Assembly: GCA_023838465.1 (NCBI GenBank)
Contig: JAIVEQ010000019.1
Location: 1-64,000, forward strand
Source of the DNA: Candidatus Thiodiazotropha sp.
Lineage (GTDB): Bacteria > Pseudomonadota > Gammaproteobacteria > Chromatiales > Chromatiaceae
DNA length: 64,000 nucleotides
Direction: 5' to 3'
A program made the translations under genes and the position numbers. Below the pieces are notes generated by a model that was not told the DNA's origin, ran no database searches, and saw nothing but the letters and a program-made list of their open reading frames with translations. Shown here piece by piece: positions 30,507 to 48,630 of this stretch. Every line of letters starts with the position of its first letter. Positions within the stretch are counted from its first letter, which is position 1.

Positions 30507-30706
30507 ACTCCCGCCTAAATACTCAATTTACTCATTCCCGGGTAGGAAACTTGATGGGTAAATAGCGTAGTAACACGCAAAGACTCTTTATATAAAGAAA
30601 CGTAAACTTTGGCTCAAGCACTGGTAAAGGGGCTGGTGTGTCTGGATAGCTTGGCATGCAAGTCCCAGTAAAGTTTGTTGACCAATTAGGGTCTGGAGAA
30701 AAAACC

Positions 30707-33700
30707 ATGATAAACGAGAATCAGGGTTACAAAAACAGAGGTGTGATGGTTTTTATCGCACTAACTCTGCTTTTTCTGACTACAACTGTAAATGCAGCTC
30801 AATTTAATTTGAATGTTGTGGATAAGAATGGCAATGCGGTGGACGGTTTCCGCTGGCTGTTGCAGGAGGATAAGACTTTTGCAGTTGATCCTGCCAATCC
30901 ATCGATCATTCCCGATGAACTGCTCTCCATGGGTTTTCATGCCAGTAACCACCCACCCGCATTAGCGCAACTTACTGGTGCTGGCTTGAGTGGAAATGTA
31001 GAGACAGATGCGGTCAACATCACAAGTGTACCACCAGGCCGTTACTATGTTTCTGTGCTGCCTTATGCAGGTTATAGCATCAGTGGTAACCAAGCGGTGG
31101 TACTACCTAATGCAGAAGACCCGAATCAAACGCTGGATAATGTCACAGTTGTGGTGCAGAAACAGCCGATTCCTACAGCCCAGATCGCGATTTATCTGTT
31201 CCATGACAATGCACCGATCAATGGCACACCTGATCTACCGGAAGAGACTGACCCTGGTGTAGGCCAACCCGGCCATGTGGACTGGACTCAGTTCGAACTG
31301 TTTCTTGAAGAGCCGGCAGGCCGCTATGGCCAGAATGGCGGCCAGGTCATCCAGGATGTATTCGGCAACCCATTGGGTACCGTATATCAGCATGGTTGTG
31401 ATGCTGACGGACAACCCGATGCGGATCCCAATACTTTTTACGGCTGTTTTGATGCGAATGGTGATCCGATCGTCAGCAGTCTTGGTAACGGTACGCTGCA
31501 ACCTGATGAGAATGGCTTCCTGACGGTCAAGAACATTGCACCAGGCAAATACGGTGTGATCATCATTCCTCCAACACCTTCGACTGACCCAGGTTGGGTA
31601 CAGACCAGCACCATTGAAGGCAGCAAGGTTATCGATGCCTGGGTTAAAGCGAATGAGCCCCCCTTGTTTGTTGAATTCGGTCTTCCAGGGCCCCACGTCT
31701 TTGTAGGTTTCGTTAAATCCACAGCTGATGGCGGATTTCCTCCCTTGTCTGCCGGTCCAGGTCAACAAGTGGCGAGCATCAGCGGAACTATCACTGACAT
31801 GCATATGTCCCGCTCCCCGAACTTTCAGTTCTTTAGTGGTCGTCCGTTTCCTCAATGCTGGATTGGTCTGAACGAATCCACACCAGGCGGTTTAGGAAGA
31901 GGGCTTTATGCCGCACCTTGTGATGGCGACAGTAATTTCTCTATCCCGAATGTGCCTCCTGGCAGTTATCAGTTGGTTATCTGGGATAAACCTTTGGATG
32001 CGGTTATTGCTGCCCAACCTTTTACCGTTGATGAAACCGGTGGTACCTGTAATGGCGGTTCAACCTGTAACTTTGGTGATGTTCCCGTATTCAACTGGTT
32101 TGCCCGTCTGAATACCGCTGTCTTCAATGATGTTGACCAGGATGGTTTCTGGGAGCCGGATGGTGCTGATGGCATAGCAGGTAATTCAGACGATGAGAAC
32201 GGCATTGGTCCAGAGAGTCAGGATGTCAGTGTCCGCTGGCGTGATGGCACGATCTATCAGAACTTCGCTATGGATGGTGCAGGTGAAGCACCTTTTGATC
32301 AGGTTTTCCCCTTCTTTCATTGGCTGGTGGCTGAAGTCAGCTTTGCCAACAAGAAGGCAACAGGCGCCACATTTGTTGTGGATGCTGGTGGTGAAATCCT
32401 TGCCGATAATGGTTGGGACATGCCCTCGCTTGACGAGTTGACACCACAGGTACAGGTTTGTACACCGGCTCAATCACTGAATCCTGATGATCCAGATGCT
32501 GGCTGTGTCGTTGGTGATCCTCTCGTCAATGTAAACACGGGCAATAACCTTTCCAGGACTGAGACCGGTCAAGTGCTGACCACGGCCTTCCAGGGATTCC
32601 TGGGACAGACCAGTGTCATGCAATTCGGTAAGACCGACTATGTAAATTTCACTGCGCCAGATTTCACAACCGTTCCACCTACCTTGCCTCAGTTCGTTGG
32701 TGAGAATGGCGGTGTCTCAGGTATCGTTTACTATGCCACCGTACGTGCTGAGGATGAGCCTCAGTTTGCGGCTGCAGAGACTTGGGAGCCAGGTATTCCC
32801 CGCGTACAGATTAACCTGTATGCCGACGGTGACATCGACTGTTTTCCTCAAGGAAACTTTGGTGCCGATGACTGTGACATCGACTGGAATCAGAACGGTG
32901 GTCTGCCTGAACCAGACGATGGTGTCATTGATGATATCAATGGTAATAACGTTATCGACTTGGCTGACGTAGATAATTATCCTCTAGGATGGGCCGATGG
33001 CGGTGCACCTGGTGTCGAAGACGTCGACCGTAATGGTAATGGTGCCTTCGACCGCGGCGATGCCCTTGCTGTCACTTGGACCGACAGCTGGGATGACAGT
33101 CTGCCTACCGGTTGTCAGGGTCAAAACCTGATCGACTTCGATCAAGATGCCACCATCACAGATGAAGAGAACAGCCGCTGTTTTGACGGTCTGCGTAACT
33201 TCAATCAAGTCCGCCCTGGCGTATTTGACGGTGGTTTTGCTTTCAACAACTACGATACATCAACACTACCTGTAGCTATTCAATCCAGTCTGAATGCTTT
33301 CTATGCAAGCAGACGTGGTGTAGATAATCCTCTTCATCTGCCTGAAGAGTGGATGTTACCCTCCGACTATATCGTCGAAGCAGCAACGCCAGGTGGTTAC
33401 AAACTGGTGAAGGAAGAGCACAAGAACGTCGATTTTGGCGATCAGTACATCCCCTCCACTCAAGCAATTGCAGCCACTTGTGTCGGCGACATGCGCCCGG
33501 TTCCTGCTTTGCTTGCGATGGCGACTAAGGATGGCAGCGGTGATCTTGCGCAGATTCTCCCAGGCTTGGATCCGGCTGATGTAGCAGCGCCTTTTACGGG
33601 TGTTAGTCGTCCGCTCTGTGATCGTAAAGAGGTCCCTCTCTCCGGTGCGCAAAATGCGGGTGTTGAGTTCTTTCTGATGACAGATGTGCCCTTAGTCGGC

Positions 33701-36673
33701 AATGCCTCAGGCGTAATCCTCAATGACCTGGCCAATGAGTTCAACCCGAATTCTCCGGCCTTTGGTGAGAAGTTTGCGCCACCGAATGCACCAGTTGCAT
33801 TCTATGACGCGGAAGGCAATCAGGTGAGCCGTGTCTATGCAGATACCTACGGTCGTTACAATGCTGTTGTGCCTTCGACCTTTACGGCCAATCTGCCTCA
33901 GCCTTCGGGTCAGTCGCCTAACATGCTGGTCTCATGCATGAACGACGCCGGTCCTGTACCTAACCCGAATTATGATCCTGCACTGGATCCAGACGGCGAC
34001 AACATTGATGACAATGGCAATCCATCGACCATGCTTGATCCGTACTTCAACAAGCAGTTCAGTCAGTTCTCCTACACCTTTCAGTACATGCCGGGTGCCA
34101 CAACCTATCTGGATACCCCGGTTGAGCCCATTGCGGCCTTTGCCGGACCCGGTAATTTCCCAGTGGATTGTGAACGTCCGACGATTACCCCGATGATCAG
34201 TTATGTGAAGCGTCGTGGCGCAAGAATCGGTCCTTTCGCTCTGCCAGGACAGCAGATCCGTATCCAGGCAATGGGTAACAATGTACAGGTACCAAACCCT
34301 GAGTGGGATGGAGTAGATCTGGCCAACAAGTTTGTTGTGCGCAATTACAATTTTGGAAATGATGCACTAGCTAAATTGGTAGCAGCAGATGGTACAGAAA
34401 CAGCTATGGTTGTACTGGGTGCTAGTGATGGCAATCGGATATTTGCAACTGTACCAGTCGTTGATCCTGGTGATTATCAGGTAATTGTGACCCGGACCCG
34501 TGCAAATGGAGCTCCGCTTGCGAACCCGGTAGATTCACCTCTTGGTGTAACCCTGACAGTGGGTACACTGGTTGGTACTACAGAGATGGGTGTGCGTCCT
34601 AACGGTGCAAACTATAATGTTTGGAGCGTACCAGGTGACTTCGCCACTATCCAGGAAGCGATCGGTGATCCGACCAAGTTAGGTCAGCCCGGTGTTGCAG
34701 CAGGTGACATGATTCTGGTTGAGCCTGGCGTCTATGATGAAATGGTCATCATGTGGAAGCCGGTGAAACTGCAAGGGTGGGGTGCCGGTGCTGTGACCCT
34801 TAACGCCCGTCAGTCTCCGACTGAAAAGATTGTTCAGTGGCGTGCCCTGGCAAGAAAACTGGACGACGATGCCTCCATCGACCGTCTGATTGGCCAGACA
34901 TTGGGGGCGCTGGGCTTTCCAGCGCTGGCGGAAGCACTCTTTCCGACTGAGCAGGGTGCCGGTATCTTCGTCACAGGCAAGCGTACTGGTACCAACCGTT
35001 TCGGTGCCCTCGCTAACCGGGGCGCCCGCATCGATGGTTTTACCATTGTCGGCGCCAGCCAGGGTGGTGGCATCGTGGCCAATGGTTTTAACCAGTTCCT
35101 GAATATCAGTAACAACATTGTAACTTCCAACGCAGGTATCTTCGGCGGGGGTATCCGTATTGGACATCCCAACATCAGCCATGAAATAGCAGCTGAGACC
35201 GATTACAACCTCAATGGTGTGGATGAGAATGAAGTCGGTGACCTGGTCTACGATGATGCAATAAATGACAGAATTCGCATTCATCACAACCATATCACTC
35301 AGAATGGCAATTCCAATGGCACGGGTGGTGGTATCTCCCTGAATGTCGGCGCTGATGCTTATCGGGTCCAACAGAACTGGGTCTGCGGTAACTTCGGCAA
35401 AGGCAACGGTGGTGGTATTTCACACTTCGGCCGTTCCAACGGCGGTGTGATCGAAGATAACCACATCATCTTCAATGAGGTCTTTAACCAGCAAGTGGGT
35501 ACAGCACCTTCCGGTGGCGGTATCTTCATCGGTGGACAGCCTCCTTTGATGGCTGCCGAAGAGACCGGTCTTATGCTCTCTTCGGGTACAGGCCATGTCA
35601 CTGTTGATTCCAATATCATCCGTGGCAATGCAGCCGGTGCTGGCGATGGTAGTGCTATCCGCATCGATACGGCCAATGGTCTTGATGTTGATCGCAGTCT
35701 GGGTGCCCGTGGCCCCTGGTACGATGTGTTTGTTTTCAACAATATGATCGACAACAATGTTGCCGGTGTTGCTGGGGCTATCTCGGTATCCGACTCATTG
35801 CAGGCAATTATCCGTAACAATACGGTCGCCAACAACGACAGTACTGCAACGGGTTCTCAGGCGTTTGAGATCACCAATCCCAACCTCTCTCTTCCACAGC
35901 CAGCAGGTATTATCTCCAGGCTGCATGGACCAGCGATGTCGCAGTTGGTGAATATCGATGATGCTGCCGGTGATGTCCTTATCGATCCAGACACGCTACG
36001 TGATCCCGATGGCGCATTGTTCTCCGATCTGTTACTGCGTGACAACATCGTCTATCACAATCGGTCGTTTTTCTGGCTGAACTTTGACAACCCAGCTACA
36101 GCGATTAGTGAAACAGGGCTTTTCCCTGCGACTGCTACCTGTCTGGCCAGCGTGCCTGTCGACCTGACGACGTTCGATCCAGCAGTATGTAATGGAGATC
36201 TGGTGAACATCGAAGGCTATACCAACGATCTGGCAGTCATGAACGGAAAAATTGAGACAGCTGATGTGCTGGATGCACGCTTCTCACTCCTGCAAACCGG
36301 CGAGCTGGTACAGGTTCCGGGCAGTAATACCTTTATTACAGGTGATGCTGGATTCGTGAACGAGTACTTCAACGAAAGTCGTGACGGCTTCCTGTTCCCT
36401 GAGTTCAAGACACTGGCTACAGCGGGTGCTTTTGACGAGGGTGGCAACTTCATCCAGGTGGCTTTCGGTCCTTTGTCCCTGGTCGAGTTGGATGATGTAA
36501 CAGGCAATGTTGAAGGTCCTCTGTTTGACTATCACCTGACGACAGCACCTGTTTCAGCGGCCATCAATAATGGGGGCAATGTTGGGGCAGCAAGTCGTAT
36601 TGGTGTAGATATTGACAATGAAGCACGTCCTAACGGTGGTCTGAACGACATCGGTGCCGATGAGGCAATGTAA
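30707..36673 (+). CDS. Giant secreted beta-helix protein (1988 aa)
   Basis: The start at 30707 follows TCTGGAGAA by 8 nt and gives a signal peptide ending near TTVNA. Residues 30-330 look like Cna-B/SdrD-type beta-sandwich domains (SVPPGRYYVSVLPYAG, IAPGKYGVIIIPP). Between about 480 and 830 are acidic calcium-type loops (DVDQDGFWEPDG, DVDRNGNGAFDRGD). Around 1170-1300 is an IPT-like sandwich (DPGDYQVIVTRTRANG). From about 1305 a right-handed parallel beta-helix begins (PGDFATIQEAIG, GDMILVEPGVYDE) with many N-N-x-I/V coils, ending LNDIGADEAM, the 'choice-of-anchor Q' type end. Methionine- and histidine-poor, without copper motifs. It precedes three oxidase-like genes in one direction and may scaffold or anchor them at the surface. 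No family name is certain. Confidence 0.75.
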   Translation: MINENQGYKNRGVMVFIALTLLFLTTTVNAAQFNLNVVDKNGNAVDGFRWLLQEDKTFAVDPANPSIIPDELLSMGFHASNHPPALAQLTGAGLSGNVETDAVNITSVPPGRYYVSVLPYAGYSISGNQAVVLPNAEDPNQTLDNVTVVVQKQPIPTAQIAIYLFHDNAPINGTPDLPEETDPGVGQPGHVDWTQFELFLEEPAGRYGQNGGQVIQDVFGNPLGTVYQHGCDADGQPDADPNTFYGCFDANGDPIVSSLGNGTLQPDENGFLTVKNIAPGKYGVIIIPPTPSTDPGWVQTSTIEGSKVIDAWVKANEPPLFVEFGLPGPHVFVGFVKSTADGGFPPLSAGPGQQVASISGTITDMHMSRSPNFQFFSGRPFPQCWIGLNESTPGGLGRGLYAAPCDGDSNFSIPNVPPGSYQLVIWDKPLDAVIAAQPFTVDETGGTCNGGSTCNFGDVPVFNWFARLNTAVFNDVDQDGFWEPDGADGIAGNSDDENGIGPESQDVSVRWRDGTIYQNFAMDGAGEAPFDQVFPFFHWLVAEVSFANKKATGATFVVDAGGEILADNGWDMPSLDELTPQVQVCTPAQSLNPDDPDAGCVVGDPLVNVNTGNNLSRTETGQVLTTAFQGFLGQTSVMQFGKTDYVNFTAPDFTTVPPTLPQFVGENGGVSGIVYYATVRAEDEPQFAAAETWEPGIPRVQINLYADGDIDCFPQGNFGADDCDIDWNQNGGLPEPDDGVIDDINGNNVIDLADVDNYPLGWADGGAPGVEDVDRNGNGAFDRGDALAVTWTDSWDDSLPTGCQGQNLIDFDQDATITDEENSRCFDGLRNFNQVRPGVFDGGFAFNNYDTSTLPVAIQSSLNAFYASRRGVDNPLHLPEEWMLPSDYIVEAATPGGYKLVKEEHKNVDFGDQYIPSTQAIAATCVGDMRPVPALLAMATKDGSGDLAQILPGLDPADVAAPFTGVSRPLCDRKEVPLSGAQNAGVEFFLMTDVPLVGNASGVILNDLANEFNPNSPAFGEKFAPPNAPVAFYDAEGNQVSRVYADTYGRYNAVVPSTFTANLPQPSGQSPNMLVSCMNDAGPVPNPNYDPALDPDGDNIDDNGNPSTMLDPYFNKQFSQFSYTFQYMPGATTYLDTPVEPIAAFAGPGNFPVDCERPTITPMISYVKRRGARIGPFALPGQQIRIQAMGNNVQVPNPEWDGVDLANKFVVRNYNFGNDALAKLVAADGTETAMVVLGASDGNRIFATVPVVDPGDYQVIVTRTRANGAPLANPVDSPLGVTLTVGTLVGTTEMGVRPNGANYNVWSVPGDFATIQEAIGDPTKLGQPGVAAGDMILVEPGVYDEMVIMWKPVKLQGWGAGAVTLNARQSPTEKIVQWRALARKLDDDASIDRLIGQTLGALGFPALAEALFPTEQGAGIFVTGKRTGTNRFGALANRGARIDGFTIVGASQGGGIVANGFNQFLNISNNIVTSNAGIFGGGIRIGHPNISHEIAAETDYNLNGVDENEVGDLVYDDAINDRIRIHHNHITQNGNSNGTGGGISLNVGADAYRVQQNWVCGNFGKGNGGGISHFGRSNGGVIEDNHIIFNEVFNQQVGTAPSGGGIFIGGQPPLMAAEETGLMLSSGTGHVTVDSNIIRGNAAGAGDGSAIRIDTANGLDVDRSLGARGPWYDVFVFNNMIDNNVAGVAGAISVSDSLQAIIRNNTVANNDSTATGSQAFEITNPNLSLPQPAGIISRLHGPAMSQLVNIDDAAGDVLIDPDTLRDPDGALFSDLLLRDNIVYHNRSFFWLNFDNPATAISETGLFPATATCLASVPVDLTTFDPAVCNGDLVNIEGYTNDLAVMNGKIETADVLDARFSLLQTGELVQVPGSNTFITGDAGFVNEYFNESRDGFLFPEFKTLATAGAFDEGGNFIQVAFGPLSLVELDDVTGNVEGPLFDYHLTTAPVSAAINNGGNVGAASRIGVDIDNEARPNGGLNDIGADEAM

Positions 36674-36806: not shown

Positions 36807-38084
36807 ATGAAATTTTTTACAAAAAAAGCTCTTAGCGGAGCAATAGCAATCACATTGCTCGGGATGATCGGAAGCGCCGGTGCTGTTGTGAATATTCAGT
36901 GTCCTGGTGATACCAATGGTGATGCGGTGATCGATACACCAGATCCTAATCATCCGAATGCAAAATGTATGTCACTCATCGCAGGTGACAGTTTTGCCAT
37001 CATGTCAGATGACAATCCCCTATACATCTTCGGTTTTGGCGATCAGACAGGTACTCCTGAAGGTGATGTCATCTCAAATGGTATTCTGGATGCAGAATGG
37101 TCCGGTCCGACTATCGAACTGGATGAGGGAGATGAGCTTTGGCTTAACCTGTCAAACGTGGGTACCGTTATCCGTCCTGATCTGTTCGATCCTCATACAA
37201 TTCACTGGCATGGATTCCCCAATGCTGCCACTGTTTTTGATGGTGTGCCTGAGGTTTCAGTCAGTATCAATATGGGCGCGACCCTGAGTTATTACTACAA
37301 CGTGGTTGAGCCAGGCACCTACATCTACCATTGCCATGTGGAAGCTACTGAGCATATGGAGATGGGCATGTTGGCCAATCTCTATGTACACCCTGCACAA
37401 GATGCGACGGGTTGTGCGAGTGCGATACCTGGTTGTCCCGTAGCCACACGTAAAGGTGGTTCGGCTGCTGGTGCGCCGTTGGGTTATGCCTACAATGACG
37501 ATGATGGCACAACGGCTTTTGATCAGGAGAAGGCCCTGCAGCTAGCCAGTTTCGATTCAGACTTTCATGATGCCAGCCTGTTTGTACAGCCACTGCCATT
37601 TGCCTTGTTGGAAGGTGATTATCCGCAAATCAACGGTCGTGGCTATCCCGATACCATTGTGTCTGGAAGCCTCCCGGCACCAGTGGATGACGTGAACGGA
37701 AAAGTGACAGGTAATCCTGGTGAACTACTGAATAACGGAACCCCAACCCAGACTCTGGATTCAGTGATCAGTGTTGCCCAAGGTGAGCGGCTCTTGCTTA
37801 GGCTCTCCAATGTGGGCCTGGATCGGTTCTGGACAGTCACTGTACCCGGTCTGAAGATGCAAATTGTCGGTACCGGCGCCCGCCACATGCGTGGTACTGA
37901 CGGAAAGAATCTCTACCGCACTACCTCTTCTGTAAATTTCGGCGGTGGTGAAACACACGATGTGATCATTGATACCACGGATGTTGCAGCAGGGACTTAC
38001 TTCCTGCATGCCACTGAATTGCACCAAATGAGCAACAGAACGCAGTTCGACGGCGGCATGATCACCGAGATCGTTGTGAACTAA
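36807..38084 (+). CDS. Multicopper oxidase subunit with type-1 site and half trinuclear site
   Basis: A 425-aa secreted protein (signal to about residue 26) with two cupredoxin domains. The N-terminal domain has H130-x2-H133-x-H135-G (DPHTIHWHGF) and H175-C176-H177-x5-H183-x4-M188 (YHCHVEATEHMEMGM). These supply a full type-1 copper set (H130, C176, H183, M188) and four trinuclear histidines. The spacing x5 after HCH differs from the usual x3. The second domain has the fold pattern (GERLLLRLSNVG, GTYFLHATELHQM) but no HxH pair. On its own the protein lacks four of the eight trinuclear histidines of an active multicopper oxidase; the next gene has them. AT-rich start, 22 bp before the next gene. 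Confidence 0.85.
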   Translation: MKFFTKKALSGAIAITLLGMIGSAGAVVNIQCPGDTNGDAVIDTPDPNHPNAKCMSLIAGDSFAIMSDDNPLYIFGFGDQTGTPEGDVISNGILDAEWSGPTIELDEGDELWLNLSNVGTVIRPDLFDPHTIHWHGFPNAATVFDGVPEVSVSINMGATLSYYYNVVEPGTYIYHCHVEATEHMEMGMLANLYVHPAQDATGCASAIPGCPVATRKGGSAAGAPLGYAYNDDDGTTAFDQEKALQLASFDSDFHDASLFVQPLPFALLEGDYPQINGRGYPDTIVSGSLPAPVDDVNGKVTGNPGELLNNGTPTQTLDSVISVAQGERLLLRLSNVGLDRFWTVTVPGLKMQIVGTGARHMRGTDGKNLYRTTSSVNFGGGETHDVIIDTTDVAAGTYFLHATELHQMSNRTQFDGGMITEIVVN

Positions 38085-38106
38085 GACCAAGCCGAGCTAG
38101 GAGATA

Positions 38107-39498
38107 ATGATGATGAGAAAACTACTCAAACAACCTGGACGGCTGATGGGCGTCCTGATGTTGGGTGTGGCGAGCCTGCTCCCTTGGGCGCAATCTCAAG
38201 CTGCCCACGACATTCGTGGGATCACACCGCAACCAGGGGGCGAGTTCAATCTGTACGCCTTCCCTTTCAATATGAACCTGCCGGAAGGCACCAGTCTTCG
38301 TATGTGGGGTTTTGGTGATATGAATGCGGGAACAGGCGCATCCCACCCACAAGGGCAGGGATACGCACTACCCCAGTATCCGGCGCCGACTCTGATTGTC
38401 ACTGAAGGCGAATCGATCACGATCAACATGACCAACTACGGTGTACCGAATCCGGTTTCCATTATCGTTACCGGTCACCAGGTGACTGCGACCGGTGGTT
38501 TAGCGGGTCTTTTGACCAACACTTCGGATCCTTCGGGTACACAAACAGTGACCTACAGCTTCACGGCAGGTAGCCCGGGCACCTATATCTATCACAGCCT
38601 GGATGGTACGAATCCAGGACTGCATGCAGAAATGGGTCTACAGGGCGTCATGGTGGTCCGACCAGCCGATGGCAGTCGTTCAGCCTATGGCACCGGGACA
38701 GGGACGGACTATGATCAGGAAAATCTCTACCTGATGACAGAAGTGGACCCCGATATCCATATTCAGATGGAAAAGGGTCACTACGAACATTTCACACACT
38801 CGGACCGATATGCCTCGGTCTGGTTTTTGAACGGCCGGGTCTTTCCTGATCTCTTTCAGGGAGACTACAACAACCTGTTCCCAAACCAGCCCTATGAGTC
38901 CCTGGTTATGGCCCATCCCGGCGACACCGTTCTGGTACGCAATGTGAACGCCGGCCATGACTCCCACCCCATGCACTACCATGGTGAAAACCTGAGGTTC
39001 ATTGGACGGGATGGCAAGATGCTCAGCTCTGATGGTGTTGTGGCTGATCTAGGTCGTTCGGACAACACCATCAACTCAGCACCCAAGCAGACAGTCGATG
39101 CCCTTTGGACCTGGACTGGTAAGGGTCTCAACTGGGATATCTATGGTCACGATACCGGCCATGTCTGTGTCGATGGTGATGGCGATGGATTCGGTGATAC
39201 GGCGAATGGAACGACCTACGAACATGAGTATTGTGCTGATCACGGCAAGGCACTTTCCGATCTGGTCACCTTGCCGGGTGTCGGTGAATTGAGTCTCGGT
39301 GGTTGGTGGAGTGGTAGTCCCTTCCTGGGCGATACAGGCGACTTGCCTCCGGGTGAGGGCGGTCTGAATCCCTTCGGCGGTTACTTCCTGGTATGGCACT
39401 CCCATGCTGAGAAAGAACTCACCACCTTCGATATCTTCCCTGGTGGATCACTGGGTGCAGTTGTCGTCCTTCCGCCGTACATCGGCATTGATGAATAA
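38107..39498 (+). CDS. Multicopper oxidase subunit with the other half of the trinuclear site
   Basis: A 463-aa secreted protein (signal to about residue 32). AGGAG precedes a triple ATG, so the exact start is open by two codons. The N-terminal cupredoxin domain mirrors that of the previous protein (RMWGFGD, TEGESITINMTNYG) but the copper positions have become VTGHQV and IYHSLDGTNPG. The C-terminal domain carries SHPMHYHGENL (H287, H290, H292) and VWHSHAEKEL (H431, H433). The type-1 cysteine position is Ser432. It thus has four trinuclear histidines and no type-1 copper, the complement of the previous gene product. Also contains an acidic loop DGDGDGFGDT, perhaps calcium-binding. Confidence 0.85.
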   Translation: MMMRKLLKQPGRLMGVLMLGVASLLPWAQSQAAHDIRGITPQPGGEFNLYAFPFNMNLPEGTSLRMWGFGDMNAGTGASHPQGQGYALPQYPAPTLIVTEGESITINMTNYGVPNPVSIIVTGHQVTATGGLAGLLTNTSDPSGTQTVTYSFTAGSPGTYIYHSLDGTNPGLHAEMGLQGVMVVRPADGSRSAYGTGTGTDYDQENLYLMTEVDPDIHIQMEKGHYEHFTHSDRYASVWFLNGRVFPDLFQGDYNNLFPNQPYESLVMAHPGDTVLVRNVNAGHDSHPMHYHGENLRFIGRDGKMLSSDGVVADLGRSDNTINSAPKQTVDALWTWTGKGLNWDIYGHDTGHVCVDGDGDGFGDTANGTTYEHEYCADHGKALSDLVTLPGVGELSLGGWWSGSPFLGDTGDLPPGEGGLNPFGGYFLVWHSHAEKELTTFDIFPGGSLGAVVVLPPYIGIDE

Positions 39499-39515
39499 GT
39501 GGGGAGGGAAAGACA

Positions 39516-42269
39516 ATGAAAAGGTCCAAAACCATGAATGTTAAGATCAAACCAATTGTAATTGCATGCGCCTTGGCTCTGGCAACCAGCCCCGCCATGG
39601 CATTGACAGATAAATATCTGATTGCCAAAGAGTTTGTCAAGACTTTGCCTGATGGTACTACTGTCACGATGTGGGGTTATGCGGAAGATGTGGGAGGCGC
39701 TTGTTATAGTACAACGCCGATAGCCGACCGATTGGCTAGCGCTGCCTGTCAGGATCCAATAGCCACCGCTCCGGGTCCTGAACTGGTGATACCTGTAGGC
39801 GAGCCAGATTTCAGAATTTTTCTGACCAATCTGCTGACTGTTCCCAGTTCTATCATTATGACCGGACAGGAACGTCCTCATTCCAATAATGTCAGCAATG
39901 GTCCTACCTGGAATTTTGGCCCGGTTGGTAATCGTACCAGTGCAACCCAAAAAGTACGCTCCTATGGTCGTGAAGCGGGGGCCAACGGTGGCCGCAGGGC
40001 TTATGTTTGGAATACCTTCCGAGGTACCCCCATCGCAAACCCAGGTGGTACTTTCACCTACTACTCCGGTACAGAACCTCAAAAGCAGGTCTACATGGGG
40101 CTGTATGGTGCTGTTACAAAGAATGCGGCTGCCGGAGAGATTTATCCGGGTGTAGCATTTACGAATGAACAAATACTGTTCTACAGTGAAATCGATCCGG
40201 ACCACAATGCTGCGGTTGCAGCGGGTGATCCGAATTATACGCCTATTGCGTACCACCCAAAGTGGTTCCTGATCAATGGTGAACCCTATGAGGATGGAAC
40301 AACTCCGGATATAGCTATAGGCAACGCCGGTGTGCCGACACTGCTGCGTTTTCTGAGTGCAGCCAGTGAAAATCATGTGCCTGTCTTTCAAGGCCTGCAC
40401 GGCATGATCCATGCGGAAGACGGTATTCAGTACAACTGGCAGGATGGAGTGACGGGGGTTACAACAACGGCACCTCGTCAACAATACTCAGTCGGCTTAC
40501 CCCCACTGATGACCAAGGATGTGATTGTCACGCCAGCTTTGGAAGGACGCTATGCGGTCTATGATGGCAACGGCTATATGACCAACCCCAGTGACCCGGA
40601 AGTGATCACCGCCGGTGATACCGTGGGTGGTATGTTGCGCTTCCTGAATTTTGGACCAAGTGTTGCGAATGCACCACCGGTTGCTTTGCCTGACACACTG
40701 ACCATTGAATTCCCAGAAGGCACTATGACCGGTGTGAGTGGCGTGGTGGATGTCCTGGCCAATGACACTGATCCTGAATTAATGCCACTCACAATCACAC
40801 AATTTGATGCCACAACACCCGAAATCGGTGGTACCGTCTCATGTCTGGGATCGGAGTGTACCTTTACTCCAGCAGGGGGAGATCCCAACCCTTATACAAC
40901 TGGAACAGGTACATTTACCTATACCGTTTCAGATGGTCCTAACGCTGTGGCAGGTGTTGTGGTGACCGTTGATGTGATTGAGAATATGGCACCGACGCCT
41001 GTGACTGATGACGTCGCGACTGATACCGGTGTGGTGCTAGATTTCAACGTGCTGACCAACGATACAGATCCAGAAACAGATACGCTCTCAATAGTCACTC
41101 TGGATACTGCAGGTATCGTTGAAGGTTCATTGAGCTGTGACAATGGAACAGGTGCCTGTACCTATACACCACCTGCTGTGCCAACACTACTGCCATTGGT
41201 TGAGACATTCACCTACACTGTCGAAGATGGTATCAACCTGGAAAGTGCAGCGACTACCGTAACCATTACGGTCACTGATCCCATACCTGCAGCGCCCGTC
41301 GGCGTTAACGATACCTATAACATGGTTGAAGACGGTGTCTTGGATGTAGCGGCTCCTGGTGTATTGGAGAACGACACGGATGCCAATGGTGATGCATTAA
41401 CTGCGGTGATGGTGAGTGGGCCGACTAATGTGCGTCCGGATCCAAACAACCCAGGCCTTTTCCTGTTCAACCTGAGCCCCGACGGTTCGTTCCATTATGA
41501 GCCTGATGTTGACTTCAATGGTGTGGACAGCTTTACCTACGTGGTGGATGACGGTACGTCAATCAGTGGTCTAACAACAGTCACGATTACGGTTGATCCA
41601 CAGAATGGCACACCAATCGCCAATAACGATATGCTGTTTCTACAGGATGCCTCGTTGACCACCTTGAATGCGGATGGAGAAGTCATCGAGACCATCTTTA
41701 ACATAGCGGCACCTGGCGTGCTTGATAACGATGTTGATGTGGATGCAGCTGATACGCTAACAGCAGCGGAGGTCAATGACCCGGATAATGTCACCCCTGA
41801 ACTGGTAGGAACGGATGGTGCGGCTACTATCACGGTTGACCATGCTGCAAGCGGTATAGTGGGCAGCCTGACCTATGAGGCGACCGACACAGCCGCGGCA
41901 GTCAGCAATGTGGCCCAGGCCGATTTCATGAGGCTGGTATCCGTGAGACGCTCTGAGTACAACATGCGTCAAAATGCCAATCCGGCCAATGATGACTGGC
42001 GTATCAGGGGTAGTGTGGATGCCAGTATCGCACCAGGAACCCAGGTGCATGTCTTCCTGGTCAGGGGGGGTGCTGATGTCGCAGAGATTCTACCGACTGT
42101 GACTGGGAATAATAACGGTCTGGTTCGGAACAATCGCAACTGGGGCATCAATGCCAACAATGTCGGCAATGCTGGACTTCTCGCTCTACCCGGGGATACT
42201 CTGCGGGTTGAGGTGGAAGGGAATGCAGATGTGATCTACCTGAACTATCCTGTGTTTATCCAGCCTTAA
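39516..42269 (+). CDS. Cupredoxin-like protein without copper ligands, Ig-like repeats
   Basis: A 917-aa secreted protein (signal ending SPAMA, good AGGGA site). Residues 30-375 repeat the two-domain plan of the previous two genes (TMWGYAED, then LHGMIHAEDG at the place of HPMHYHG), but every copper histidine pair and the cysteine are lost (SSIIMTGQE, TYYSGTEP, HVPVFQG). From about 383 to 800 are three to four tandem cadherin/BIg-type domains marked VLANDTDPE, VLTNDTDPE, VLENDTDAN and VLDNDVDVD. The C-terminal 110 residues form another sandwich (SEYNMRQNANPANDDWRIRG). It probably provides structural domains of the oxidase complex plus a stalk or matrix-binding part; independent oxidase activity is not expected. 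Confidence 0.8.
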   Translation: MKRSKTMNVKIKPIVIACALALATSPAMALTDKYLIAKEFVKTLPDGTTVTMWGYAEDVGGACYSTTPIADRLASAACQDPIATAPGPELVIPVGEPDFRIFLTNLLTVPSSIIMTGQERPHSNNVSNGPTWNFGPVGNRTSATQKVRSYGREAGANGGRRAYVWNTFRGTPIANPGGTFTYYSGTEPQKQVYMGLYGAVTKNAAAGEIYPGVAFTNEQILFYSEIDPDHNAAVAAGDPNYTPIAYHPKWFLINGEPYEDGTTPDIAIGNAGVPTLLRFLSAASENHVPVFQGLHGMIHAEDGIQYNWQDGVTGVTTTAPRQQYSVGLPPLMTKDVIVTPALEGRYAVYDGNGYMTNPSDPEVITAGDTVGGMLRFLNFGPSVANAPPVALPDTLTIEFPEGTMTGVSGVVDVLANDTDPELMPLTITQFDATTPEIGGTVSCLGSECTFTPAGGDPNPYTTGTGTFTYTVSDGPNAVAGVVVTVDVIENMAPTPVTDDVATDTGVVLDFNVLTNDTDPETDTLSIVTLDTAGIVEGSLSCDNGTGACTYTPPAVPTLLPLVETFTYTVEDGINLESAATTVTITVTDPIPAAPVGVNDTYNMVEDGVLDVAAPGVLENDTDANGDALTAVMVSGPTNVRPDPNNPGLFLFNLSPDGSFHYEPDVDFNGVDSFTYVVDDGTSISGLTTVTITVDPQNGTPIANNDMLFLQDASLTTLNADGEVIETIFNIAAPGVLDNDVDVDAADTLTAAEVNDPDNVTPELVGTDGAATITVDHAASGIVGSLTYEATDTAAAVSNVAQADFMRLVSVRRSEYNMRQNANPANDDWRIRGSVDASIAPGTQVHVFLVRGGADVAEILPTVTGNNNGLVRNNRNWGINANNVGNAGLLALPGDTLRVEVEGNADVIYLNYPVFIQP

Positions 42270-42310: not shown

Positions 42311-42361
42311 TGTCAAATCACAGGAAAGTAGTAACAGTATGAGCTTAAAGGGTAGGTGTTA

Positions 42362-42958
42362 ATGAAAAACCCTGACTATTCCGATAGGCCAAGTATGGAT
42401 GACCAGAAAAGTCATCCTAAAGGTCATCCACTGTTGATTATCATGGTAGTGGTTATCTGTATGACGGTGTTGATGGCTTTTGCCTCCTCCGTTGCCAAAA
42501 GCGCCGAAAGCCCGGCGACTGTCACCCAATCTCAGCAATCTATTTTCAAGGACTGGAAACCTCCGGTAGCTCAGCCTGTCAAACTGCCATCTCCGGTTTC
42601 CCCTCAAACGGCCAAGGAGATTGCGGAAAAGTGGGGCGTTGAACTGATCAGCCTGCGTTTAACCGCTGCCGGCTATATGATCGATTTCCGTTTTCGCGTG
42701 CTGGATGAAAAAAAGGCTAACAGCTTCTTTGATCACCGCATCAAACCGTTGCTGGTGGTTGAGAAATCTAATGCTAAACTACCTGTACCCATGGCCGCTA
42801 AGGTGGGCGCTTTTCGTCCAACGAATCGCGGCAAGAGTATTCGGCCAAATAAGATCTATTATATGGTTTTCGGCAATCCTGATGCCCATGTGAAGTCGGG
42901 AGAGAAGGTCACGATGGTGATCGGTGATTTCAAGGCTGAACACTTAACCGTTAACTAA
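42362..42958 (+). CDS. Membrane-anchored protein of unknown function
   Basis: 198 aa from the ATG at 42362 (GGGTAGG upstream); a GTG two codons earlier is also in frame. A short basic His-containing cytoplasmic N-terminus (MDDQKSHPKGHP) leads to one membrane helix (LLIIMVVVICMTVLMAFA). A Pro-rich linker follows (KPPVAQPVKLPSPVSP), then a periplasmic domain of about 120 residues (WGVELISLRLTAAGYMIDFRFRV, YYMVFGNPDAHVKSGEKV). The domain has no cysteine and no evident metal motif. No family recognised. Its position between the oxidase genes and the copper chaperone suggests a role in assembly or anchoring. Confidence 0.75.
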   Translation: MKNPDYSDRPSMDDQKSHPKGHPLLIIMVVVICMTVLMAFASSVAKSAESPATVTQSQQSIFKDWKPPVAQPVKLPSPVSPQTAKEIAEKWGVELISLRLTAAGYMIDFRFRVLDEKKANSFFDHRIKPLLVVEKSNAKLPVPMAAKVGAFRPTNRGKSIRPNKIYYMVFGNPDAHVKSGEKVTMVIGDFKAEHLTVN

Positions 42959-42984: not shown

Positions 42985-45900
42985 ATGTGCACTAGGATTT
43001 CCATATTAAGATTATTGTCTCTGTTAGCCATTGCGTTACCCTTCGAAAGTCAATCAGCAGTTACTGTTTATTGTTGTGATGCAACCGCGGAAGCTCAATA
43101 CATACAGGATTTGGCCTCATTACCATCCATCACGGTCGACCTGACATCAGAAAGCTTTGAGGGTGATGCCTGGGTTGGTACACGTTCCTTACCGGAAGCC
43201 ACAGTCACATCGCAGGGCATTACATGGGCACCGAGTTCGAGTGGTGTTGCCGGTATGAGCACCAGTATTGGCGGTGGGGATGTGCATGATGGCAGCTATT
43301 TGATGTTTCCTGTCGATGACAGAAATAATCATCTGATTCCTGATCAATATAACTTGACCGCCAATGGCATAACCTTATACGGCGTCGGAGGTTGGTTTCG
43401 TAGCGCGTCAAGCACAAAATTAGCATTCACCAGCAACGGCTCTGAGGCCATTGATTTCACGGGTGAACAATCGACTGTTTTCGACTGGACATTTCTTGGT
43501 TTTATCGACGATGCTGGATTCAGCAACCTCATGATTCAAACATCAGATGAGATAGGAAATGAAGCGAATACTTTCTTTTCTGATGATTTTACCTTGGGTG
43601 CGCAATCGGGGGCATTTCCCGGCCAGAAGTTACAATTCAGCAGCGCCACTTATTCAACCAATGAAAGTTCCTCCAGCACACAGATTACAGTACAAAGATC
43701 AGGTGGTACATCGGGAGCGCTTTCGATCGACTATGCCTCCACCTCTGATGGCACAGCCAGCGCAGGACAAGATTTTACCGCGGTATCAGGCACTTTGGAC
43801 TTTGCTGATGGAGAGAGTAGTAAACAGTTCACCATCAACCTTCTTGATGATGGCGTATTTGAAGGTGATGAGACGGTCACATTGTCCTTGAGTGGTAGTG
43901 CCGTCGGGGTTATAAACACAGCAACATTGACAATCTTGGAGAATGACGCTCAACCTGTCGGAAGCGTAGAGTTTAGTGGTAGCAGTTATCGGGTTGATGA
44001 GGGGATAGGAAGCATTATAGTTACGGTTCAAAGAAGTAACGGAAGTGTCGGCAGTGGCTCTGTTGACTATGCCGTGAGCGATGGTACTGCGACTGCCGGC
44101 AGTGATTACACGTCTGCTGCTGGCAGTTTATCCTTCATTGATGGCGAAACAAGCAAAAGCTTCACTGTGGATATTACCGACGACAGTACACAAGAAGGTG
44201 CCGAATCGGTTGTACTGAGTTTGAGTAATCCAGTCTCTGTTTCCCTGGGAGAGAGAGATTTTGCTGATATAACCATCCTTGATAATGAACCGATACCTGC
44301 AGCCGGTAGTATTCAATTTAGCGGTTCTGCATACAGCGTGACTGAGGGCTTATCTGAGGTTGTGATACCGGTGACCCGCGTCGGTGGAAGTAGTGGGGCT
44401 GTCAGTGTTGTCTGCAGCACTGCGGATTCGAGCGCCCTGGCTGGGAGTGACTATTCAGCCACTCAAAGTAGTATCAGTTTTACTGAGGGTGAAACCTTGC
44501 AGCATTGCAGAGTCCCCCTCCTGAACGACAGCAGCTATGAAAACGATGAGTTGTTTATGGCTAATCTGGGAGCACTCACTGGCGGTGCTATCCTGGCTAC
44601 ACCTGCTATGGCTGTTGTTACCATTCAAAATGATGATCCAGTCCCTGTTGCAGGCAGCCTGCAGTTCAGTTTGGTTGAGTTTCAACAAACAGAGAATGGA
44701 GGCAGTGCAACCATTTCAGTGACTCGCTCAGGTGGTTCAAGCGGTGCCGTCAGTGTCAATTATGCAACTTCAGATAACAGTGCTGCGGCAGGTGAGGATT
44801 ATAGCGCGACCAATGGTAGCTTGAGTTTTGCCGATGGCGTTACTACCGCATCATTTCAAGTCACAATACTAGACGATAGTGCCTATGAGGGCGACGAGCG
44901 AGTCAATCTCAGCCTTAGCAATCCATCTGGCGGTGCTGTAATTGGTGCTAATTCAGCAGCTGATTTGATTATCACTGAGGATGATCAGGCACCAGCTTCA
45001 GGTCAAATTGAATTCAGTGTGAATACCTATGCTGCAGATGAGTTTAATGGAAGCGTGACAATCGAAGTGGTACGCCAAAACGGTAGTACCGGTGTTGCGA
45101 TGGTCAATTACACAACCAGCGATGGAACAGCCACTGCAGGCAATGATTATATTGTCAACAGCGGTACCCTTATCTTTGCCAATGGTGAAATCTCGAAGAG
45201 TTTCGATGTGACCCTGAATGATGATGCAAATTTCGAGGGCATTGAAACGTTCAATCTGACCTTGAGTAATGTGTTTGGTGCTTTACTGGGGGATATTACC
45301 TCAGCATCTGTCAGTCTCAGCGATGACGATGACCCACCAGCCGCCGGGGCTGTGGTGTTTACCGAATCAATCCAATCAGTCTCAGAAGATGGTAATAGCG
45401 CAACCATCTCGGTATCACGTGAGGGTGGTTCCGCTGGGGCCATATCTGTTGATTATACTACAATGGACGGCTCTGCAATCGCTTCCTCAGACTATACGTT
45501 TAGTACCGGTAGAATCAGTTTTGCTGCAGGTGAGGCAGTCAGTAAATCCTTCGATGTAGCAATAGTCAATGACACACAATTGGAAGGTGATGAGCAGTTA
45601 GCACTACAGCTGGTTAATCCTCAAGGTGGTGCTGTACTGGGAACGCAAAGCTTATCACAGCTGACCATCAATGATGATGAAGCACAGTCGAGCTCTGCCA
45701 TTCTTGCCTTCACAGTGAATAGCCTCTCTGTCGATGAATCATCTGCGGTCGCAAACATATCTATCAGCCGTGCAAATGTGCTGACGGGTAGCGTAACGGT
45801 TGATCTTAGCGTTGAATCCACAACGGCTGTTTCTGGCACTGATTTCAACGTCACAACCGGAACTTTACAGTTTGTCGATGGGGAATCACAAAAGAATATC

Positions 45901-46173
45901 AGTGTAGAGATCATCGACAACACCCTAGAAGATGGAAATAAGACGATTACATTTACGATAGGCAATGCAACTGGAGTAGCGGTTATAGATACTGCCAATA
46001 GTACAGTAACACTCACCATACTGGATGATGATGGAACCACAAATCCAGGTAATGATGATAGTGGTGGAGGCGGCGGCGGTGGCGGCAGTATTGATCTGCT
46101 ACTGCTGGCTTTTCTCCTGTCTTTAACCCTGTTTTTGTACAAATTCAGGCTGAATTTGTCACCTAAGTGTTAA
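42985..46173 (+). CDS. Seven-Calx-beta surface protein with GlyGly-CTERM-like tail
   Basis: A 1062-aa secreted protein with a signal peptide to about residue 25. Residues 30-210 form an anchor-type sandwich domain with paired cysteines (YCCDATAE). Seven tandem Calx-beta domains follow, each with the pattern S-x-Y-x-V-x-E, G-T-A-x-A-G-x-D-Y and D-D-x-x-x-E-G-x-E. The C-terminus is a Gly run (SGGGGGGGGS), a hydrophobic helix and a few basic residues (YKFRLNLSPKC). This resembles the GlyGly-CTERM signal handled by rhombosortase, which acts on T2SS-exported proteins; a match to that exact family is not certain. Calcium-stiffened adhesin or matrix protein is the likely role. Confidence 0.8.
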   Translation: MCTRISILRLLSLLAIALPFESQSAVTVYCCDATAEAQYIQDLASLPSITVDLTSESFEGDAWVGTRSLPEATVTSQGITWAPSSSGVAGMSTSIGGGDVHDGSYLMFPVDDRNNHLIPDQYNLTANGITLYGVGGWFRSASSTKLAFTSNGSEAIDFTGEQSTVFDWTFLGFIDDAGFSNLMIQTSDEIGNEANTFFSDDFTLGAQSGAFPGQKLQFSSATYSTNESSSSTQITVQRSGGTSGALSIDYASTSDGTASAGQDFTAVSGTLDFADGESSKQFTINLLDDGVFEGDETVTLSLSGSAVGVINTATLTILENDAQPVGSVEFSGSSYRVDEGIGSIIVTVQRSNGSVGSGSVDYAVSDGTATAGSDYTSAAGSLSFIDGETSKSFTVDITDDSTQEGAESVVLSLSNPVSVSLGERDFADITILDNEPIPAAGSIQFSGSAYSVTEGLSEVVIPVTRVGGSSGAVSVVCSTADSSALAGSDYSATQSSISFTEGETLQHCRVPLLNDSSYENDELFMANLGALTGGAILATPAMAVVTIQNDDPVPVAGSLQFSLVEFQQTENGGSATISVTRSGGSSGAVSVNYATSDNSAAAGEDYSATNGSLSFADGVTTASFQVTILDDSAYEGDERVNLSLSNPSGGAVIGANSAADLIITEDDQAPASGQIEFSVNTYAADEFNGSVTIEVVRQNGSTGVAMVNYTTSDGTATAGNDYIVNSGTLIFANGEISKSFDVTLNDDANFEGIETFNLTLSNVFGALLGDITSASVSLSDDDDPPAAGAVVFTESIQSVSEDGNSATISVSREGGSAGAISVDYTTMDGSAIASSDYTFSTGRISFAAGEAVSKSFDVAIVNDTQLEGDEQLALQLVNPQGGAVLGTQSLSQLTINDDEAQSSSAILAFTVNSLSVDESSAVANISISRANVLTGSVTVDLSVESTTAVSGTDFNVTTGTLQFVDGESQKNISVEIIDNTLEDGNKTITFTIGNATGVAVIDTANSTVTLTILDDDGTTNPGNDDSGGGGGGGGSIDLLLLAFLLSLTLFLYKFRLNLSPKC

Positions 46174-46199
46174 CTGTTAAAGGAATTCGGAGAAGTTTG

Positions 46200-46964
46200 A
46201 TGATGTCTTTAGTTTCAAGGAACATGCGTGCTGGCTTATTTATTTTGCCTGCTATGGTTTTTTCGCTAGCCGCATACTCTTCTGAAGGCGAACTTAGTGA
46301 TGCACCCGGCATAAAAACCGGGACGTTTCAACCGCCTTTTAAGATGGACTGTATCACCAGACCCTCCAATGACATGACTACCGCCAAAAGATTTATGGTC
46401 TCTACGAATATGAGCGACCATTCGAATCATGATCAGCATGCTCATCACAGGATGATGATGGAGCAAAATGACTATAAAATCGATAAAGTCGTTTATTCAA
46501 TTCCCGATGTTTTTTTAACATCTCATAAAGGCGAAAAGACTCATCTCCCTCAACTTCTAAATAGTGACAAGCCGGTGATGCTTAATTTTATATTCACCAC
46601 CTGTACGACTATCTGTCCGGTACTATCTGCAAGCTTTCATCAAGTTCAGGAGATTTTGGGGAAAGAAGAGTCTGTCTCTATGATATCAATCACCATTGAC
46701 CCGGAATATGACACACCACAGCAGTTGATGAAATACGCCAAGCGTTTTAAAGCTCAGGACAATTGGCAGTTCTTTACCGGCAGTTACAAAGATGTAGTGT
46801 CGGTCGAAAAGGCATTTGATATTTTTCGAGGTTCAAAACTGAACCATGAGCCCATTACTTTGATTCGAGGTGATGCTGAGGCATCTTGGATAAGGATTAA
46901 CGGTTTGGCCAGTGCAGAGGATATAGTAAAGGAGTATCACAGTATTATGGATAATGAGGAATAA
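46200..46964 (+). CDS. SCO1/SenC-like copper chaperone
   Basis: A 254-aa exported thioredoxin-fold protein. Start at 46200 has GGAG upstream. An N-terminal signal or anchor is followed by a histidine-rich stretch (SDHSNHDQHAHHRMMMEQ) and the SCO domain with FIFTTCTTICPVLSASF (C135-x3-C139), ITIDPEYDTP and the NHEPITLI histidine. SCO proteins deliver copper to cytochrome oxidase or act as thiol-disulfide reductases. Next to multicopper oxidase genes, loading those proteins is the likely job. The extra His/Met-rich segment fits copper capture. Its stop overlaps the next start (TAATG). Confidence 0.88.
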   Translation: MMSLVSRNMRAGLFILPAMVFSLAAYSSEGELSDAPGIKTGTFQPPFKMDCITRPSNDMTTAKRFMVSTNMSDHSNHDQHAHHRMMMEQNDYKIDKVVYSIPDVFLTSHKGEKTHLPQLLNSDKPVMLNFIFTTCTTICPVLSASFHQVQEILGKEESVSMISITIDPEYDTPQQLMKYAKRFKAQDNWQFFTGSYKDVVSVEKAFDIFRGSKLNHEPITLIRGDAEASWIRINGLASAEDIVKEYHSIMDNEE

Positions 46965-48604
46965 TGAAAAAAAAAACGAATTGGTTTTTTCAGCTTTGTC
47001 TGATAACTAGCTTAGTTGGGTATTCATCTGCATCGGTAAACTGTGCTGAGATCGATACTAATAAATATCAGATCGGCAAGCAGCTCTATACTGATGGTTT
47101 ACTTCCGTCCGGTGAGCCAGTAAAAGCAGTTGTTCAGGGTGATATCCAGGTTGAAGGCAACCAATTGATTTGTGAGACATGCCATAGAAGAAGTGGTATG
47201 GGCTCGACGGAAGGCCAGCAAGTCGTCCCGGCAATCGCGGGTCATATCCTCTTTAAACCACTCAAATTACCTACTAGTCGACCACCTGAGCCCCCCATCT
47301 ATCGAGATGGCTATACAAAACAGTCCCTAATGAGGGCAATCAGAGATGGGGTCGATGTAAATGGTGAGCCTTTGGATCCATTTATGCCCAGGTATAATAT
47401 TGATGAGGCGACTCTTGATGGTTTGACAACCTATCTCGATACACTTTCGCAAGCAGCATCCCCAGGTGTTACGGAAACAACCATTCACTTTGCCACTGTG
47501 GTACTCGCATCCAATAAGGAAGAAGATAACAGAGCGCTTCTGGATGTGATGAGCTTGTATGAAGAACAAAAAAATACTGAAACGCGGCACGAATCTAAGA
47601 GAGCAGAAAATGCACCGTGGCATAAGGAGTGGATGTTTAAGCCCTATAGGAAATGGCAAATTCATACTTGGGAGTTAACGGGTGATGAAGAGAGCTGGCC
47701 ATCACAATTAGAAGCGCTTTATGCAAAACAACCTGTTTTTGCTCTTTTAAACGGTCTTGTGCCTACAGGCTGGGAGAAAATCCACAACTTTTGTGAAAGT
47801 CAGAGCCTACCGTGTCTATTCCCTACCACCCAGTCGCCTGTTGTGGCAGAAAAATATTTTTACTCCATCTATTTGAATAAAGGTGCTGCGCATGAGGGTG
47901 AAGCAATAGCATCCTATCTTTCGAATAGTGAAAAGAGTGTCAATGTTATTCAGTATATCGATACATCTGATCAACTGAGCATGATGGCAGCAAATTCACT
48001 CCGTGATAGGTTACAGGAGAGAGATATTGCAGTTACTGATGTCATGTATAGTGATGTGATCGAGTCTAGTCAGCAGTTAGAAGTGTCACAGCCCAATCAG
48101 GTTACCGTATTGTGGCTGGGGCCGGGTAAAACAGATGAGTTATTGACAAGGCTGGGTAAAATCACCCCAACATCTATACCCGATGTTGTTCTTTCTACAA
48201 GGTTTTATGGAACCACAACAGATTCAATACCCTCTCGATTTCATGACTCAGTAAAGTTTATACATACCTCGGAAATGCCTCAGCGCCTGAAACGCTTATT
48301 GATGAGGTCCACAGGTTGGTTTAAATCGAAGAGGATTTATAATTCTGATGCGCTGGAGATTCAGGCTAACGCATTCTTTTCACTAAAGGTAGCCGGTGAT
48401 GCGCTTAAAAGTATCAGGGGTTATTTTTTTCGGGACTATTTTATCGAGAAAGTTGAACACATGATCGATGATATACCCTATACTTCGATCTACCCAAGGG
48501 TCAGCTTAGCGCCTGATCAACGGTTTATCTCGCGAGGTTTCTATGTGGCGGGAATAGACAATAGTGGCAAGCTCGTTAACTTCACAGATTGGAAGGCTCC
48601 GTAG
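46964..48604 (+). CDS. Cytochrome c fused to periplasmic-binding-like domain
   Basis: A 546-aa periplasmic protein with a signal peptide to about residue 28. The N-terminal 170 residues are a class I cytochrome c domain: heme site C70-E-T-C73-H74 (LICETCHRRSGMG), a conserved DGVDVNGEPLDPFMPRYNI with the probable axial Met, and LTTYLDTL. From about 180 to the end is a type-1 periplasmic-binding (amino-acid/urea-receptor-like) fold, with FATVVLASNKEEDN and PVFALLNGLVPTGWEKI. This fusion could sense or bind a small molecule while carrying electrons. It lies between SCO and a sensor kinase, so it may be the kinase's extracytoplasmic partner. Partner and ligand are inferred. Confidence 0.78.
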   Translation: MKKKTNWFFQLCLITSLVGYSSASVNCAEIDTNKYQIGKQLYTDGLLPSGEPVKAVVQGDIQVEGNQLICETCHRRSGMGSTEGQQVVPAIAGHILFKPLKLPTSRPPEPPIYRDGYTKQSLMRAIRDGVDVNGEPLDPFMPRYNIDEATLDGLTTYLDTLSQAASPGVTETTIHFATVVLASNKEEDNRALLDVMSLYEEQKNTETRHESKRAENAPWHKEWMFKPYRKWQIHTWELTGDEESWPSQLEALYAKQPVFALLNGLVPTGWEKIHNFCESQSLPCLFPTTQSPVVAEKYFYSIYLNKGAAHEGEAIASYLSNSEKSVNVIQYIDTSDQLSMMAANSLRDRLQERDIAVTDVMYSDVIESSQQLEVSQPNQVTVLWLGPGKTDELLTRLGKITPTSIPDVVLSTRFYGTTTDSIPSRFHDSVKFIHTSEMPQRLKRLLMRSTGWFKSKRIYNSDALEIQANAFFSLKVAGDALKSIRGYFFRDYFIEKVEHMIDDIPYTSIYPRVSLAPDQRFISRGFYVAGIDNSGKLVNFTDWKAP

Positions 48605-48630
48605 ATCTATGCATATTTGTCGCAATAACT

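Follow-up and report, generated by a model that had tools for sequence, protein, structure and literature searches.

Multicopper oxidases are textbook enzymes, seen as single chains or as homotrimers. The two-domain oxidases are trimers with a trinuclear copper cluster to which one chain contributes its domain 1 and the neighbouring chain its domain 2, with histidines from both, and their division into types A, B and C follows the position of the type-1 copper (PMC13151041). In six-domain proteins the cluster can be formed at the domain pairs 1/6, 2/3 and 4/5, and the bacterial members carry the type-1 copper in domain 2 and the cluster at 2/3 (Vasin 2013, PMC3600357). Three tandem multicopper oxidase genes, found with mofC-like and SCO genes, are described for Sideroxydans lithotrophicus by He et al. 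(2017, PMC5566968), where the set is stated to have no homology to OmpB/MofA. According to Keffer et al. (2025, PMC12016527), Slit_1812-1818 of this cluster showed higher levels with magnetite than with Fe(II)-citrate, and the multicopper oxidase motifs are present in Slit_1817 and 1818 and absent from the larger 1816. The DNA analysed here, hereafter the window, comprises 64,000 nucleotides of contig JAIVEQ010000019.1 of Candidatus Thiodiazotropha sp. (assembly GCA_023838465.1) and contains three adjacent cupredoxin genes, designated g1, g2 and g3. Their products are probably the subunits of one exported multicopper oxidase which descends from a type-C homotrimer and has an active site shared by g1 and g2. 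The sequences make it highly probable that g1 and g2 assemble a joint trinuclear cluster, and a g1:g2:g3 ring of 1:1:1 is somewhat favoured as the form of the complex.

The three genes lie on the same strand, with gaps of 22 and 17 bp between them (Table 1). A preliminary description of the locus had assigned a full type-1 site and four trinuclear histidines to domain 1 of g1, the other four trinuclear histidines to domain 2 of g2, with serine at the type-1 cysteine position, and no copper ligands to g3. All three open reading frames were found exactly where claimed, and the motifs of g1 were as described, including HCHVEATEHMEMGM, which fits HCH-x5-H-x4-M with M188 as its last residue. The g2 set was confirmed and is invariant in homologues, and the lack of ligands in g3 was upheld, its core having the two-domain cupredoxin fold and being followed by repeats that the description had omitted.

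Homologues were compared at 80 loci from Gamma-, Beta- and Deltaproteobacteria, Acidobacteria, Myxococcota, Nitrospirae, Planctomycetes and others (taxa from record titles). At these loci g1 was recovered 80 times, g2 78 times and g3 73 times, the missing copies of g2 and g3 being mostly at contig ends or on short contigs. The residues H130, H133, H135, H175, C176, H177, H183 and M188 of g1 were each present in 73 of 73 aligned homologues, and the ligand positions of g2 were equally invariant (Table 1), one of the 70 aligned rows ending before the HSH motif. The motifs, being invariant in the homologues of both g1 and g2, are thus not due to chance. Other histidines (H401 and H406 of g1, H163 and H173 of g2) varied, and the homologue alignments contained no conserved copper ligand set in domain 2 of g1, domain 1 of g2 or either domain of g3. 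With domain 2 of g1 and domain 1 of g2 lacking a ligand set, neither protein can complete a trinuclear cluster by itself or in an oligomer of identical chains, and both are therefore best interpreted, by a wide margin, as forming a heteromeric active site. No case of g1 without g2 was seen among the 80 loci where the contig was long enough, and the possibility raised earlier, that homologues of g1 work alone as oxidases, found no support, since g1 always adjoins g2. The order g1-g2-g3, with the genes adjacent, was the same across loci of many phyla.

The predicted structures of g2 (predicted local distance difference test, pLDDT, 87) and of the g3 core (pLDDT 89) have a two-domain cupredoxin fold. 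The best matches of the g2 model were 3G5W and 2ZWN at Z 29 (3G5W: Z 29.4, 2.5 Å over 273 residues, both domains), the g3 core matched 4KNS, 2ZWN and 3G5W at Z 26.0, and the best solved relatives of g1, by sequence profile, were again 3G5W and 2ZWN. We take these two structures to be two-domain oxidases of type C, the kind that carries its type-1 copper in domain 1. Sequence searches of the PDB gave nothing closer than two-domain oxidases, laccases and nitrite reductases, and the profile of g3 matched two-domain laccases and ceruloplasmin. Pfam assigned multicopper-oxidase domains to g1 and g2, and only cadherin-like repeats to g3. These repeats, of the tandem-95/cadherin type, make up most of residues ~395-917, so that g3 does not consist of a two-domain unit alone; repeat-free g3 homologues of 421 amino acids also exist (L039/L040). 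As in type-C oxidases, each chain has two cupredoxin domains (g2 and g3 by model, g1 by Pfam and alignment). The type-1 ligands in domain 1 are held by g1 only, and the trinuclear half-sites are not found together in one chain, the domain-1 half being in g1 and the domain-2 half in g2. A true type-C oxidase used as a control (locus L161), from a Thiobacillus genome in which g1-g3 are present as well, has HTIHWHG with HCH and HAIHIHG with HDH in a single chain. The split therefore belongs to the g1-g3 family and is not an artefact of motif reading.

The paralogy of the three proteins, first noted for their N-terminal domains, was borne out over both domains, with profile-profile E values of 9e-12 (g1/g3) or better (4e-21 for g1/g2, 3e-28 for g2/g3). 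In the phylogenetic tree g1, g2 and g3 each formed one clade (Shimodaira-Hasegawa-like approximate likelihood ratio test, SH-aLRT, 99-100), which places the triplication before their dispersal among phyla; the two nearest each other were g2 and g3, with support of 93, under the 95 mark. The distance matrices of the three proteins correlated (r 0.84-0.92), as is expected of co-inherited genes and is no proof of contact. The mean column identity was 29 % for g3, which evolves faster, compared with 40-44 % for g1 and g2. The system looks like a homotrimer turned into a heterotrimer after gene triplication, with one of the three sites retained.

The preliminary description had regarded the locus as a six-cupredoxin-domain oxidase, on the plan of ceruloplasmin and MnxG, split over three genes. 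Of this, one copper set distributed over two polypeptides and a ligand-free third paralogue stand, and the cut six-domain chain does not. Read as a chain g1-g2-g3, the half-sites fall in domains 1 and 4, which matches no permitted pair, the type-1 copper is not in domain 2 as in bacterial six-domain oxidases, and the fold is nearest to that of the type-C two-domain oxidases. A valid pair (1/6) arises only in the cyclic order g1-g3-g2, which free subunits can adopt. The search proposed for genomes with the genes fused yielded no g1-g2 or g2-g3 fusion among the loci, three separate open reading frames being present wherever all three genes were. On domain-pair geometry and the absence of fusions, a literal split of a six-domain chain was rejected. 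Apparent g1-g2 fusions at L064 (an overlapping open reading frame) and L073 (a long one) were also rejected, as open reading through GC-rich DNA; g1 of L073 has a signal peptide. A site between two polypeptides had been called unusual, and it is so for different proteins as the chains, whereas an interchain cluster as such is normal in two-domain oxidases (PMC13151041). The split-site layout proposed here for three paralogues was not described in the literature searched, in which a search for heteromeric multicopper oxidases led only to papers with mentions of fungal 'heterodimeric laccase', to a plant review and to unrelated papers, and no paper named Thiodiazotropha with a multicopper oxidase.

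Table 1 Features of the g1-g2-g3 locus and of two-gene systems (window positions unless a locus number, L, is given; aa, amino acids)
Feature	Position	Strand	Description
2005-aa surface-type protein	30656..36673	+	fn3_3-like stretch, parallel beta-helix-like, choice-of-anchor Q end
g1	36807..38084	+	425 aa; secreted two-domain cupredoxin; type-1 site and four trinuclear His in domain 1; domain 2 ligand-free
g1 HTIHWHG, residues 130-136 (H130, H133, H135)	37194..37214	+	One type-1 His and two trinuclear His, by homology
g1 HCHVEATEHMEMGM (H175, C176, H177, H183, M188)	37329..37370	+	Type-1 Cys/His/Met and two trinuclear His
g2	38107..39498	+	463 aa; secreted two-domain cupredoxin; domain 2 with the other four trinuclear His; domain 1 ligand-free
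g2 HPMHYHG, residues 287-293 (H287, H290, H292)	38965..38985	+	70/70 homologues
g2 HSH (H431, S432, H433)	39397..39405	+	Ser at type-1 Cys position; 69/69 homologues
g3	39516..42269	+	917 aa; secreted; ligand-free two-domain cupredoxin core ~39600-40655, then tandem-95/cadherin-like repeats
Conserved 200-aa protein	42356..42958	+	No assigned family; usually just downstream of g3
Calx-beta repeat protein	42985..46173	+	Surface type
SCO1/SenC-family protein	46167..46964	+	Probable copper delivery; in 31/53 loci with enough flank
546-aa protein	46964..48604	+	One CxxCH haem motif, no Pfam match; in 28/53 loci with enough flank
Sensor histidine kinase	48589..50022	+	Possible regulator
Two-gene split oxidase	L166:4071-6198, L167:6447-8594, loci L184-L198		Gene A with domain-2 half only, gene B with type-1 domain-1 half only
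Opposite-division adjacent pair	L175:2845-6730 and L178-L180		One genus, three genomes; type-B orientation

A surface protein of the 2005-aa type is encoded directly upstream of g1 at 74 of the 75 loci with enough flank. At five loci (L070, L078, L079, L098 and L102) it forms one continuous open reading frame with g1, with no stop or internal signal peptide, which suggests, without being proof, that g1 may work attached to it. From the repeats and from the Sec-type signal peptides, judged by eye to be present on each of g1, g2 and g3, we infer that the complex would be exported and located at the surface. The window genome has close relatives among the lucinid-clam symbionts of Candidatus Thiodiazotropha, one contig of which has g1 at 96 % identity; g2 is present in most genomes of the genus. 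In these relatives the surface protein, g1, g2, g3 and the 200-aa protein are often followed by the Calx-beta, SCO1-like and one-CxxCH haem proteins. In a close relative (L021:7518-10092, same contig as L041) g3 is divided into two overlapping open reading frames, by a frameshift or an assembly error, and L023 likewise has two g3 reading frames. Tubeworm symbionts, from Lamellibrachia and Escarpia, carry the cluster as well (L051-L053, L057). In the window the cluster is adjoined by a subtilase with Calx-beta repeats (50156-53068, minus strand), which may belong to the system, since related sequence is found a short way downstream of g3 at many distant loci. Just upstream (28497-30117) are a histidine kinase and a convergent NarL-like response regulator, possible regulators kept in most relatives of the genus. 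Rfam gave no match in the window.

In the proposed mechanism, domain 1 of g1 would take up electrons at its type-1 copper and pass them via its His-Cys-His to the trinuclear cluster, the other four histidines of which would come from domain 2 of g2, and O2 would be reduced at this g1/g2 cluster. The ligands of g3 have been lost, and it most likely takes the third place in the ring, the cyclic order setting g1 domain 1 against g2 domain 2. The SCO1-like protein would probably supply the copper, and the enzyme would probably be kept at the cell surface by the large beta-helix protein encoded upstream together with the repeats of g3. A reduced metal such as Fe(II) or Mn(II), perhaps mineral-bound, would be the likeliest substrate. 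By analogy, surface metal oxidation is the most likely role, with an about even chance of being correct. The Sideroxydans cluster is very probably the same system as g1-g3, the orthology being judged from its description in the two papers.

Concerning the substrate only, the shared-site enzyme could instead be a copper- or phenol-detoxifying oxidase, which is the main rival and a possible though less probable role. The SCO1-like neighbour would suit copper handling and small laccases have broad substrates (PMC13151041), whereas the association of the genes with those of a large surface protein and of a haem protein, the presence of Gallionellaceae and Rhodoferax among the carriers, and the expression of a matching cluster with a magnetite link, reported in PMC12016527, argue for a metal-mineral oxidase.

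A comparable division of the site occurs in two-gene operons, the first of which were found by profile matches in two genomes also carrying the three-gene system; a search of 369 genomes of the class then yielded further loci. Gene A has HxH and PMHxH in domain 2 and a bare domain 1, and is followed by gene B with HTxHxHG and HCH in domain 1 and a bare domain 2. This half-site division was seen at 17 of 17 loci examined. Several gene A proteins have PMHCH as the second motif, making a second type-1 cysteine possible. In the pair with the opposite, type-B orientation, the second gene bears the type-1 set in its domain 2, and the first gene bears HVHG with HDH in its domain 1; the HCH of the pair was found by scan in two genomes and read from the sequence (HLHCH) in the third. 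The two-gene proteins formed long branches in the tree and their placement relative to g1-g3 is unsure. Judging from their motifs, both families support the split-site principle. A broader proposal, that there is an obligately heteromeric class of multicopper oxidases in many phyla, in which paralogues of an ancestral homotrimer divided one trinuclear site, that it includes the two-gene and type-B-oriented families and that its three-gene form oxidises Fe(II)/Mn(II) at the surface, is put forward tentatively, at slightly less than an even chance.

The two-gene systems, having no third paralogue, would also agree with g1 and g2 alone forming the shared site, for example in a 2:1 or 1:2 ring, and with g3 being a separate surface or adhesion protein of common ancestry, as would the ligand-free, faster-evolving sequence of g3 and its adhesin-like repeats. 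This arrangement appears unlikely, since g2 is followed by g3 at 73 loci, g3 homologues that lack the repeats still retain the two-domain core, and the three paralogues correspond to the three places of the ancestral trimer.

It is quite improbable that g1 and g2 are independent neighbouring copper proteins, such as an electron carrier, a nitrite-reductase-like enzyme or a copper-binding protein. Both are weakly similar to copper nitrite reductases and would be separately exported. The replacement of HCH by HCA is the mark of a copper nitrite reductase, which has a type-2 catalytic copper and no trinuclear cluster. In g1 and g2, HCH and HSH are invariant in place of HCA and represent the type-3 copper pairs of oxidases, the eight histidines are invariant exactly as two complementary sets, and g1 and g2 are strictly adjacent. 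Complete sites in a homotrimer of each protein, the usual form of two-domain oxidases, using residues missed by motif reading, can hardly be maintained when g1 H401 and H406 and g2 H163 and H173 are not kept and no conserved histidine stands at the ligand positions.

Several observations weigh against the shared-site, three-subunit oxidase. The carriers include probable anaerobes (Desulfobacteraceae, Geobacter), which is awkward for an enzyme reducing O2. Interface covariation between the domains of g1, g2 and g3 (mutual information with average product correction, 74 rows, effective number of sequences 62, too shallow) gave no combination that stood out, and the predicted structures, those of g2 and the g3 core, are of single chains. 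As two-gene systems exist, a third paralogue is not always needed, which leaves the ring place of g3 unproven. The substrate reading is based on analogy and on one proteomic study of a cluster matched by description.

An active site formed only where the products of two different genes come together would illustrate how asymmetry arises in a symmetric enzyme, with one site of three kept, and for annotation 'three oxidases' would become one. The cluster occurs here in sulfur-oxidising animal symbionts and iron-cycling bacteria, and its three-gene form would, if iron or manganese bound in minerals is its substrate, be a testable candidate for a long-sought extracellular metal oxidase.

Among known systems, the OmpB/MofA clusters of Geobacter and Leptothrix resemble the locus in combining a surface multicopper protein with genes for SCO1 and a MofC-like cytochrome and differ in that the protein is a single large chain. 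The 546-aa haem protein resembles, by description only, the MofC-like cytochrome plus periplasmic-binding-domain protein of He et al. (2017). Slit_1812-1818 of Sideroxydans ES-1 likewise include three neighbouring cupredoxin genes, of which two encode oxidase motifs and the third, a larger one, does not, together with SCO1 and a cytochrome, whereas in the papers each protein with the motifs is regarded as an oxidase of its own, and complementary half-sites are not noted in the available parts. MnxG and the bacterial six-domain oxidases also have six cupredoxin domains and one complete copper set, in contrast in a single chain with type-1 copper in domain 2 and the cluster at 2/3 (PMC3600357). 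Ceruloplasmin likewise has six domains, in a pseudo-threefold ring of its own, but is a single chain with three type-1 sites and the cluster at 1/6, matched here only in the order g1-g3-g2. The type-C two-domain oxidases (Nitrosomonas europaea blue copper oxidase, 3G5W; metagenome laccase, 2ZWN) are alike in fold over both domains, in the type-1 copper of domain 1, in having four trinuclear histidines per domain and in a cluster expected between chains; they are encoded by one gene and form homotrimers with three sites, whereas g1-g3 are three paralogues that would form one site, with its halves on different proteins.

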